NCBI GenBank assembly: GCA_902586695.1
Contig: CACIIL010000002.1
Span: 1-64,000, forward strand
DNA from: an uncultured Alphaproteobacteria bacterium
GTDB lineage: Bacteria > Pseudomonadota > Alphaproteobacteria > HIMB59 > GCA-002718135
Reading direction: 5' to 3'
DNA: 64,000 bases
The translations under genes and the position numbers were made by a program. Shown here piece by piece: positions 19,608-23,128 of this stretch. The notes beneath the pieces are model-generated. The model saw nothing but the letters and a program-made list of their open reading frames with translations. It was not told where the DNA came from and searched no databases. The first letter of the stretch is position 1, and every line of letters begins with the position of its first letter.

Positions 19608-20255
19608 ATGATTAAAATAGCACCATCAATACTAGCAGCTGATTTAATTAATATAAAAGAAGAAGTTCAATTAGTTGATAATAATGGAGCTGAATATATT
19701 CATATAGATGTAATGGATGGCCATTATGTTCCTAATATTACTTTTGGGCCAAATATAGTTAAATCTCTTCGAGGGGTTACAAAAAAAGTACTTGATGTGC
19801 ACTTAATGATAAGTCCAGTTATAAATTATATTGATAGTTTTATTAAAGCAGGATCTGATATTATTAGTTTTCATCCAGAAGCAGATAAAGATTCAAACGA
19901 AATTATAAAAAAAATTAAATCAAATAATTGTAAAGCTGGCATAGCTATTCATCCAAATATTCAGGTCAAAGATATTATTCAATATGTAGGAGATGTAGAT
20001 TTAGTTGTTGTTATGACTGTTATACCGGGATTTGGTGGTCAAGAATTTATGAAATCTGAAGTAAATAAAATTTTAGAACTTTGTGAAATCAAAAAAGAAA
20101 AAAAACTTAATTTTGAAATTGAAATTGATGGAGGTATTAATGATAAGACTGCTAAGATCTGTAAAGAAAACGGTGCTGACGTGTTAGTAGCTGGATCTTA
20201 TATTTTCTCAAATAATAAAGATAATTATAAAACATTAATTGACTCACTTAGATAA
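19608..20255 (+). CDS. rpe: ribulose-phosphate 3-epimerase
   Basis: Interconverts ribulose-5-P and xylulose-5-P in the pentose phosphate pathway. I start at ATG 19608 (MIKIAPSILAAD), the family's normal beginning; the 11 extra track residues are unlikely. Active-site features are visible: the DVMDGHYVPNITFG metal-binding segment, LDVHLMI, ISFHPEA, MTVIPGFGGQ and EIDGGIND. The 215-residue length is typical. The stop shares one base with the lysR start. Together with the split transketolase elsewhere in the window it could feed pentose phosphates into central metabolism. Confidence 0.95.
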   Translation: MIKIAPSILAADLINIKEEVQLVDNNGAEYIHIDVMDGHYVPNITFGPNIVKSLRGVTKKVLDVHLMISPVINYIDSFIKAGSDIISFHPEADKDSNEIIKKIKSNNCKAGIAIHPNIQVKDIIQYVGDVDLVVVMTVIPGFGGQEFMKSEVNKILELCEIKKEKKLNFEIEIDGGINDKTAKICKENGADVLVAGSYIFSNNKDNYKTLIDSLR

Positions 20256-21142
20256 TGGATTGGGATAAATTAAAATCATTTTATGAAATAGCTATTTCAA
20301 AAAGTATTTCAAAAGCTAGTGCAAAATTAAATATTAGTCAATCAGCTCTAAGCAGGCAAATTCAAGATTTAGAGTATGATTTAAAGACACCGTTATTCAT
20401 TCGTCATCAAAAAGGTGTTAGATTAACTGAACAAGGAGAGAATTTATTTCAAACTGTTAGTCAAATTAATTTATCTGTATCAAATTTTGAAAAAAAATTA
20501 ATAGACAAAAAAACTAAACCAGTAGGCAAACTTAATATAAGTACGACTGTAGGATTTGGGTCTACTTGGCTTACACCAAGAATCAATAAATTTATACAAC
20601 AGTACCCTGATATGGAAGTAAATATTATTATGTCTGATGAAGAAGTTGACTTATCTAAAAGAATTGCAGATGTAGCTGTTAGAGTAAAAAAACCTACTCA
20701 AGCAAATTTAATTTTTAAAAAATTTGTTAACTTTCATAATCATATTTATGGATCATCAGATTATTTAAAATCTACTGGAATTCCTAGAAATGTAAATGAT
20801 CTAGATAAACACAACCTAATATGTTTTGGATCGGGATTGCCTTCACCTATCTCAAATATAGACTGGATTTTAAAATTAGGAAAAGAGGGAACTAAAAGAA
20901 AACCAAAATTTAGAGTTAATAGTATTTATGGGATGTCTTTAGCTGTTGAAAAAGGTGCTGGTTTAGCATCTTTGCCTGATTATATGGTTGCTGATAAGCC
21001 TCACTTAGTTAGAGTTCTCCCTAATGTAGAAGGTCCTTCATATCAAACTTACTTTGTATATACTGAAGCATTTAAAAATGACAGAAGGCTAGAGGTTTTT
21101 AGAGATTTTTTATTTAATGAAGCAAAAGATTGGCATTATTAA
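20255..21142 (+). CDS. LysR-family transcriptional regulator
   Basis: DNA-binding regulator with a C-terminal periplasmic-binding-like effector domain. The N-terminal winged helix is clear: AISKSISKASAKLNISQSALSR, then QIQDLEYDLKTPLFIRHQKGVRLTEQGE. Effector domain motifs such as GKLNISTTVGFGSTWLTPRI follow. At 295 residues it is standard. LysR proteins often regulate a divergent gene, but here the gene is co-directional and overlaps rpe by one base, so its target is not evident. The next gene has its own promoter, so the target may be unlinked. Confidence 0.92.
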   Translation: MDWDKLKSFYEIAISKSISKASAKLNISQSALSRQIQDLEYDLKTPLFIRHQKGVRLTEQGENLFQTVSQINLSVSNFEKKLIDKKTKPVGKLNISTTVGFGSTWLTPRINKFIQQYPDMEVNIIMSDEEVDLSKRIADVAVRVKKPTQANLIFKKFVNFHNHIYGSSDYLKSTGIPRNVNDLDKHNLICFGSGLPSPISNIDWILKLGKEGTKRKPKFRVNSIYGMSLAVEKGAGLASLPDYMVADKPHLVRVLPNVEGPSYQTYFVYTEAFKNDRRLEVFRDFLFNEAKDWHY

Positions 21143-21145
21143 TCT

Positions 21146-21173
21146 TTGACTTACTTAAAAGAATTTGTATAAA
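21146..21173 (+). promoter_or_regulatory. near-consensus sigma70-type promoter
   Basis: TTGACT (21146-21151) and TATAAA (21168-21173) are separated by 16 bases, the best -35/-10 pair I noticed in the window. A start of transcription about seven bases downstream would fall near 21180, only some five bases before the ATG of the tiny basic ORF at 21185. The transcript would therefore be almost leaderless. It lies directly after the lysR stop. Confidence 0.55.
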
Positions 21174-21184
21174 CCTCATTAATA

Positions 21185-21268
21185 ATGGGATATCCAAAAA
21201 AACATCGCGGTCGTCGTAAAAGAGGATCTAAATACAGACGTAATAAAAGGCGTCAAAAGAAGAAATAA
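21185..21268 (+). CDS. 27-residue ultra-basic protein, candidate ribosome- or RNA-associated
   Basis: Too short for the ORF track. The ORF reads MGYPKKHRGRRKRG.. and ends ..RRQKKK: 18 of 27 residues are Lys or Arg and there is no acidic residue. It uses CGC, CGT and GGT codons that are scarce in neighbouring genes, a sign of selection for efficient translation. A good promoter lies just upstream and no SD is visible, consistent with leaderless initiation. Size and composition recall tiny ribosomal proteins such as bTHX, but I cannot show homology. Alternatives are a nucleic-acid-binding peptide or chance, which I consider unlikely given the codon bias. Confidence 0.6.
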   Translation: MGYPKKHRGRRKRGSKYRRNKRRQKKK

Positions 21269-21324: not shown

Positions 21325-21720
21325 ATGACGATTTTTAACCCTATTGAAGAAAGCAAAGCTAAAGGAAAAGTAAAAAAAGTTTTTGATAACATCAAAAAAG
21401 AAAGACAAATAAAAAAAATTCCTAATTTCTGGAAAACTATAGCAAATGATCCAGACACACTTGAAAGAACATGGAATTCTCTAAAAGATATAATGAAAAA
21501 AGGTGCTTTAGACCCTCTAGTTAAAGAAATGATTTACATGGCAGTATCTATGACAAATAGCTGTGAATATTGCATACGATCACATACTGCAGCGGCAAAG
21601 AAAAAAGGAATGTCAGATAAAATGCTAAAAGAGCTGATTGCAGTTGTAGGTATGGCAAATGAGACTAATCGGCTTGTGGAATCTTATCAAGTTGAAGTTG
21701 ATAGTTTTCTTAAGAAATGA
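21325..21720 (+). CDS. carboxymuconolactone decarboxylase / AhpD-like protein
   Basis: Small helical protein of the AhpD-like fold, usually a peroxidase-type thiol reductant or of unknown substrate. I choose ATG 21325 over the track's 21298 because AGGAG lies five bases upstream of it. The catalytic CxxC plus His is clear in SCEYCIRSHTAAAKKKGMS. The rest matches the family (LVKEMIYMAVSM, IAVVGMANETNRLV). At 131 residues it is normal. It sits in a rightward run before sbmA and fxsA with a 44-base gap, suggesting possible co-transcription. Confidence 0.87.
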   Translation: MTIFNPIEESKAKGKVKKVFDNIKKERQIKKIPNFWKTIANDPDTLERTWNSLKDIMKKGALDPLVKEMIYMAVSMTNSCEYCIRSHTAAAKKKGMSDKMLKELIAVVGMANETNRLVESYQVEVDSFLKK

Positions 21721-21764: not shown

Positions 21765-22769
21765 ATGTTTAAATTTTTCAGTAATACTAAATGGGCAATT
21801 TGGGCTTGGCCAGGCTCTATACTGATTCTATCTTCAATTTGGTTTCAGGTTAAAATTGATGTTAGAATTAATGAATGGTTTGGTGAATTTTATGATCTAA
21901 TACAAAAAGCTCTCTCTGCTCCAAATTCAATTACTATATCTGAATATTGGGCAAGTTTACTTTCATTTATTACATTAGCTGGAATAGCAGTAGCAGTTGC
22001 TGTTGCGATAAGTTTTTTTACAAATCATTTTTTATTTAGATGGCGAACTGCAATGGTTGAATGGTATCATTCAGTATATGATAAAGCTAGGACAATAGAG
22101 GGTGCTTCACAAAGGGTTCAAGAAGATACAATTAAATTTTCTAGAATTATGGAAAGTCTCGGTACAAGCTTTATAGCTTCTGTTTTAATTATTTTTGAGT
22201 TTACTCCTATACTTTTTGGATTAAGCGTTGGAATTCCAATTTATTTTTTTGGTGATTGGCAATATGGTTTAATTACTGGAGCACTTATTTGGTCAATTGG
22301 TGGCACATTATTTTTAATATTTCTTGGATTAATACTTAAACTTGTAGGTGTAGAATATGATTTACAAAAACAAGAAGCAGCATACAGAAAAATATTAGTA
22401 ATAGCAGAAGATGATGGAACAGTTAGGCCAAAAAAACTAGAGGAATTATTTGATGATGTTAGAAAAATACATTTTTTAAGTTATCTAAGATATTTGTATT
22501 TTGGAATAGCTAGTAATGCCTATGGTCAAGCAAATGTTTTAAGTGCATATATATTTTTAGCCCCTGCTATAGTTGCAGGAGTGGTTACTTTAGGTGTTAT
22601 GCAGCAAATTATTAGAGCTTTTGGAAGAGTTGAATCTTCACTGCAATATCTATTAAGAGCATGGCCTACTATTATTGAACTTCTAAGTGTTTACAAAAGG
22701 TTACGAGAGTTTGAAAAGATGATCGAGTCTAAAATTGAAAAAGAGAAACTAGAGTCTTCTTCTGAATGA
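21765..22769 (+). CDS. SbmA/BacA-family transporter
   Basis: Inner-membrane proton-driven peptide transporter homologous to E. coli SbmA and rhizobial BacA, resembling an ABC transmembrane domain without an ATPase. The 334 residues are shorter than E. coli SbmA (406). The hallmark region WHSVYDKARTIEGASQRVQED (here ..EWYHSVYDKART..) and the following IKFSRIMESLG helix are intact. Several membrane spans precede and follow it. The C-terminus after LREFEKMIE is charged and cytoplasmic. It overlaps fxsA by four bases (ATGA). Homologues import antimicrobial peptides and affect very-long-chain lipid A acylation. Confidence 0.88.
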   Translation: MFKFFSNTKWAIWAWPGSILILSSIWFQVKIDVRINEWFGEFYDLIQKALSAPNSITISEYWASLLSFITLAGIAVAVAVAISFFTNHFLFRWRTAMVEWYHSVYDKARTIEGASQRVQEDTIKFSRIMESLGTSFIASVLIIFEFTPILFGLSVGIPIYFFGDWQYGLITGALIWSIGGTLFLIFLGLILKLVGVEYDLQKQEAAYRKILVIAEDDGTVRPKKLEELFDDVRKIHFLSYLRYLYFGIASNAYGQANVLSAYIFLAPAIVAGVVTLGVMQQIIRAFGRVESSLQYLLRAWPTIIELLSVYKRLREFEKMIESKIEKEKLESSSE

Positions 22770-23128
22770 TATTTTTACTATTTATCTTAATCCCCATAAT
22801 TGAAATTAGCATCTTTATAACAGTTGGGTCTAACATAGGCATTTTTAATACTATTGGGATAATTCTTTTGACAGCTTTGATTGGTATATTTTTAGTTCGC
22901 AAAAGAGGTTTAAGCTTATTATTTAATGCACGTCAAAGTATGTCAGAGGGTATAATGCCAACTAATGAAATAAAAGGGGGTATTTTTCTTCTTATTTCGG
23001 GACTGCTTTTGATAACACCTGGTTTTTTTACTGATTGTGTTGGTTTTGCTGTTTTCTTAAAACCTGTTCAAGATTTGATTGCTCTTAAAGCAAAAAATTA
23101 TTTTGTCTCAAGAACTAGAAGGTACTAA
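22766..23128 (+). CDS. fxsA: FxsA family membrane protein
   Basis: Small inner-membrane protein; in E. coli its overproduction counters F-plasmid exclusion of phage T7, but its normal function is unknown. It opens MIFLLFILIPIIEISIFITVG and has the conserved ALIGIFLVRKRG loop and ISGLLLITPGFFTDCVGF segment. Three or four hydrophobic spans fit in 120 residues. It is coupled to sbmA by an ATGA overlap and its 3' end overlaps the convergent DapA-family gene by 21 bases. Confidence 0.9.
   Translation: MIFLLFILIPIIEISIFITVGSNIGIFNTIGIILLTALIGIFLVRKRGLSLLFNARQSMSEGIMPTNEIKGGIFLLISGLLLITPGFFTDCVGFAVFLKPVQDLIALKAKNYFVSRTRRY

Follow-up and report, generated by a model that had tools for sequence, protein, structure and literature searches.

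The described proteins that resemble the micro-protein reported here include bTHX (30S protein Thx, S31; PF17070), which is likewise 26-27 aa long and very basic, begins with MG and, in T. thermophilus, ends in KKK, and which loses its initiator Met as the micro-protein probably does, but carries a GKGDxxT, GSYG and RP signature that is missing from the micro-protein. The bS22/mS38 protein of actinobacteria and mitochondria is also a basic ribosomal protein of one lineage, about 33 aa in length, and bL37, a 24-aa 50S protein of mycobacteria, is similarly tiny, basic and lineage-specific, although neither shows sequence similarity to the micro-protein beyond that of shuffled sequences.

Small exchangeable ribosomal proteins are encoded by phages as well, including bS21 in the pelagiphage HTVC008M (PMC6375957). 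Like the micro-protein, phage bS21 is small, common to SAR11 and phages, under purifying selection and placed in variable phage contexts; the two differ in that their sequences are unrelated and that bS21 is a known ribosomal protein with demonstrated entry into the ribosome, whereas the micro-protein is known from sequence. Furthermore, at least three conserved intergenic small open reading frames of unassigned function were described in SAR11 HIMB5 (Stav et al. 2019, PMC6429828). The micro-protein gene may be one of these, but the available part of the main text of that study links them neither to phages nor across phyla.

The micro-protein gene and its surroundings

The gene is located in the window, by which we mean the whole analysed stretch of 64,000 nucleotides, between genes for a LysR-type regulator and an AhpD-like protein:

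20255..21142, + strand: LysR-type regulator, upstream neighbour (PF00126 and PF03466)
21146..21151, + strand: -35 hexamer TTGACT (hexamer and spacer of 16 nt recur in all 25 distinct upstream regions from the genus)
21168..21173, + strand: -10 hexamer TATAAA, 11 nt 5' of the ATG (TATAnn in 25/25 upstream regions of the genus)
21179..21184, + strand: predicted leader of 4-6 nt without Shine-Dalgarno sequence (from the -10 spacing and comparison within the genus)
21185..21268, + strand: micro-protein gene, 27 codons and TAA, conserved and apparently under purifying selection
21188..21229, + strand: core [GASP]YPKKHRGRRK-x-GS, codons 2-15 (from alignments of full-length copies)
21328..21720, + strand: AhpD/carboxymuconolactone decarboxylase-like protein, downstream neighbour (PF02627)

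The 27-aa product, MGYPKKHRGRRKRGSKYRRNKRRQKKK, contains no Asp or Glu, and Lys and Arg make up 16 of its 27 residues (59%; 63% including His), slightly less than the two-thirds that the original prediction had given. Of the preference for CGC, CGT and GGT codons claimed there, a part is borne out: the GC content of the coding sequence is shifted (35.7%, versus 28.5% for the window), whereas its GC3 is just 22% and AGA, AGG and GGA codons are used too. Within the window this is the sole ATG-initiated frame between 20 and 60 aa in which Lys and Arg account for 55% or more, and no such frame occurred in 40 Markov-simulated windows. The LysR and AhpD-like neighbours are not thought to take part in the function of the micro-protein. 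Directly 3' of the AhpD-like gene, at 21765-23128, the window encodes an SbmA/BacA-like transporter and, after it, an FxsA-like membrane protein.

Distribution in bacteria

A protein search of the genome of the window and 60 relatives found the gene in 54 of the 61, including all ten that are at least 90% complete. The copies of the genus that were read show one residue difference at the most, the full-length matches of the protein search are 96-100% identical, and the sister family of the HIMB59 type is 81% identical. In a sample of the class Alphaproteobacteria the gene was restricted to four families, that of the window and three others including SAR11 (f99), where 50 of 60 genomes had a match, one of them partial and weak. 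A scan of named genomes returned at least 118 stretches; among the matches listed, nearly all were from Pelagibacteraceae or uncultured Alphaproteobacteria, together with one Fonsibacter and one Gemmatimonadales MAG. The copy in the latter is placed in an ordinary chromosomal context of 64% GC, and the gene was found in 3 of 198 genomes of the class of this copy and in 7 of 81 in a family sample. In a phylum sample of 349 genomes it was present in the genome of the window alone. Most of the alphaproteobacteria and Gemmatimonadota sampled thus lack the gene, which implies that the ribosome generally has no need of the micro-protein.

In the SAR11 genome G396 (99% complete) both the gene and a close match to metC, its neighbour, are lacking, and the locus must be either absent or unassembled. 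In two further SAR11 genomes of 94% completeness (G397 and G403) no copy was found, which can reflect a divergent copy, an assembly gap or true loss. The bacterial neighbours vary: LysR and AhpD in the window, an rpoH-like gene in family f25 and a convergent mnmA in SAR11 (rpoH and mnmA were both assigned by eye from the sequence), while one Gemmatimonadota copy follows Sua5/TsaC.

Phage copies

The micro-protein is also encoded on 26 IMG/VR viral contigs in at least five gene contexts; several of these contigs are fragments, and the phage copies are assigned to no host. Two relaxed viral patterns, one relaxed at K5/K12 and the other at YP, returned the identical 26 contigs. The phage proteins are 28-40 aa long owing to a lengthened C-terminus, which in the copies of the L246 type and in L233, L240 and L242 extends up to 13 residues past the 27-aa host form with the core unchanged.

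The copy in L241 belongs to a capsid/GroES module related to the pelagiphages HTVC023P and HTVC027P, those in L235 and L242 to a DnaA-C/HNH/integrase region, that in L247 lies by a DNA ligase gene, and L232 also carries a large terminase gene. No copy was found in the cultured relatives of the L241 phages (HTVC023P, HTVC027P, 023Pt_psg01 and DSL-LC04) or in phage EXVC032P. A tblastn search against phages and plasmids gave no match and is uninformative, as low-complexity filtering was on. In L231 and L244 the gene is found among tRNA arrays with tmRNA, and an RNA ligase gene adjoins the L231 copy; in L239 two tRNA genes lie within 1.5 kb. Each of the arrays of L231 (4388-10070) and L244 (638-10433) consists of a tmRNA gene and many tRNA genes, in total 11 in L231 and 14 in L244, between which dCMP deaminase and further small genes are interspersed in similar order; the two look like related phages and may hence be one case. 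A separate small conserved phage protein (KYPKCVPLAKATRMT..EKASAVKRKRAAGN) was noticed in L287 (about 2432), L288 (about 2155) and L289 (about 8638), that is, in one pelagiphage and two other phages. The spread of the micro-protein to SAR11, Gemmatimonadota and phages was not foreseen by the original prediction.

Sequence invariance and selection

All full-length copies that were read, whether from AT-rich alphaproteobacteria, GC-rich Gemmatimonadota or phages, agree in residues 3-12 (YPKKHRGRRK) and in G14. The patterns used for collection had most of the core fixed, and the apparent invariance is therefore in part a matter of ascertainment; searches with profiles left the core free, and a part of their matches was read. 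Within codons 2-15 variation is confined to residue 2, x13 and one S15R replacement (L301, with GR for GS). At residue 2 the only amino acids are G, S, A and P (150/24/6/1), all of which are permissive for methionine aminopeptidase, and therefore the initiator Met is probably removed to leave a mature protein of 26 residues.

The copy in phage L242 shares 25/25 residues with a copy from the genus of the window (L011) and only 58/75 nucleotides, and such identity of residues despite diverged silent sites indicates selection at the protein level. In the first 19 codons, the variable sites among 175 different coding sequences of 81 nt number 11/6/18 at codon positions 1/2/3; pN/pS amounts to 0.07 for the genus and, over the whole set, to 0.12 for the core. 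These figures are lowered by the pattern fixing codons 3-12 with which the compared coding sequences were chosen, although the genus genomes themselves came from a protein search that made no use of this pattern. As judged from these comparisons, the micro-protein is under purifying selection. The claim of a real micro-protein is thus borne out, with the frame conserved in relatives and changes falling mostly at third positions instead of equally at all three. The open reading frame at 21185-21268 is a real gene, for which conservation is stronger evidence than the count in simulated windows.

Promoter and translation signals

The promoter proposed upstream of the frame, TTGACT-16-TATAAA, was confirmed at its coordinates and is conserved throughout the genus, where TTGACT-16-TATAnn precedes the ATG by 10-14 nt in all 25 distinct upstream regions; our consensus promoter scan omitted it because the scan accepts only a -10 hexamer ending in T. 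From the spacing to this element, transcription is predicted to start at about 21179-21181 with a leader of 4-6 nt, and none of the 25 upstream regions contains a motif resembling a Shine-Dalgarno sequence. The nearly leaderless mRNA that had been suggested therefore fits the genus of the window. In copies of the HIMB59 type a TATTAT or TATAGT-like element, read by eye, is found about 8 nt 5' of the ATG, a layout also consistent with leaderless mRNA. The suggestion does not extend to most SAR11 subclades, which have Shine-Dalgarno-like AGGA or AGGAGG sites before the gene, nor to the Gemmatimonadota copies, which have GC-rich codons and, in most cases, Shine-Dalgarno-like sequences of their own. 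The leaderless layout, read from upstream sequences, is clade-specific, and the differences between clades indicate that the protein is fixed while its mode of expression is variable.

Possible function and alternative explanations

In our reading, the micro-protein is somewhat more probably than otherwise a putative lineage-specific ribosomal or ribosome-associated nano-protein, which phages would encode as well in order to supply or replace that of the host. The invariant candidate docking motif, the predicted tail and helix, the translation-related neighbours of some copies and the precedent of phage bS21 all point in this direction. Y, P, H and G are fixed in the core, and so is the choice between K and R at each position, which suggests docking on one specific surface; most likely this is a conserved RNA surface, probably of the ribosome, since such invariance fits a conserved RNA site better than general neutralisation of charge. 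An extended, invariant N-terminal tail (YPKKH) would lead into a basic helix (RGRRKxGS..RR..), and both would dock in a single, specific pocket of a structured RNA that is most probably rRNA. An AlphaFold2 model of a 35-aa phage homologue with 40 family members has residues 1-7 extended and residues 8-34 helical, with a mean pLDDT of 84 and a pTM of 0.41, which for such a Lys/Arg-rich peptide is a weak indication of a helix. The micro-protein would be expressed from its own promoter on its own short transcript, presumably at a high level. Docking on a fixed RNA surface, probably the ribosome, would account for phages bearing their own copy, and during infection this copy, often with an extended C-terminus, may supply or replace the host protein as has been proposed for bS21. 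As with virus-encoded ribosomal proteins, the same protein occurs in host and phages and is under purifying selection. Against a ribosomal role count the neighbours in the genus of the window and in HIMB59, which are not translation genes. The argument from neighbours is further weakened by the tendency of phage tRNA arrays to gather assorted cargo.

A nucleoid or DNA-condensing micro-protein, used by phages for packaging or for control of host DNA, would equally be small, charged and free of acidic residues, and would suit those phage copies found in structural or replication modules (L241, L235 and L247). We regard this as unlikely, because non-specific condensers allow exchanges between K and R while K, R, Y, P, H and G of the core are all fixed, and because the gene context in phages varies between groups, as that of a packaging protein would not, and no copy was found in the cultured relatives of the L241 phages. 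The argument from invariance applies just as well to a partner of another structured RNA or RNP, such as tmRNA, RNase P or a tRNA-processing complex, and tmRNA, tRNA and RNA ligase genes near some phage copies, with mnmA and Sua5 near some bacterial ones, agree with it. This too seems quite unlikely, as the lineages have no neighbourhood in common and the genus of the window has no tie to any such RNA.

Descent from bTHX, bS22/mS38, bL37 or eL41 by strong divergence would explain the similar length and charge, and the MG start and KKK end shared with T. thermophilus bTHX, but is highly improbable given the outcome of the family searches. Searches of the frame against Pfam and NCBIfam gave no match at E up to 10, and the AURKAIP1/COX24 C-terminal domain of bS22/mS38 was not matched either. 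The Thx profile PF17070 was above cut-off in 0 of 41 genomes and had no weak match at the frame, in agreement with the original view that the micro-protein is not bTHX. Alignments of five members to T. thermophilus Thx (z -1.9 to 0.0) and to bL37 (z -1.3 to 0.3) were no better than shuffles, nor were those to bS22/mS38 and eL41, and GKGD and RP are missing. In these comparisons the sequences of eL41, bL34, bL36, bL32, bL35, bL20 and uS12 were not taken from database records. One of 50 comparisons, a SAR11 copy against E. coli bL35, reached z 3.6, which we ascribe to chance as the other four copies did not. No match was obtained for five family members in PHROGs at E<=10, for the micro-protein in PDB sequence searches or for the region in Rfam, and the exact motif, as letters, was not found in the literature searched. 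A chance open frame, although short ones are common in AT-rich DNA, is refuted by the protein being conserved between phyla and in phages while silent sites have diverged.

Implications

Few cells on Earth are as abundant as those of SAR11, in which the micro-protein is near-universal (50/60 genomes). It appears to be missing from the family databases searched (Pfam, NCBIfam and PHROGs) owing to its length of only 27 residues. Tentatively, it may be an undescribed ribosomal nano-protein of the SAR11/HIMB59 type that is exchanged by phages across phyla, the extended phage forms of which would specialise host ribosomes during infection. The invariant block common to phages, Gemmatimonadota and Alphaproteobacteria is indicative of a docking site that is very constrained and has gone unrecognised, and if this site lies on the ribosome, the micro-protein would represent a new ribosomal component and a further handle of phages on host translation.
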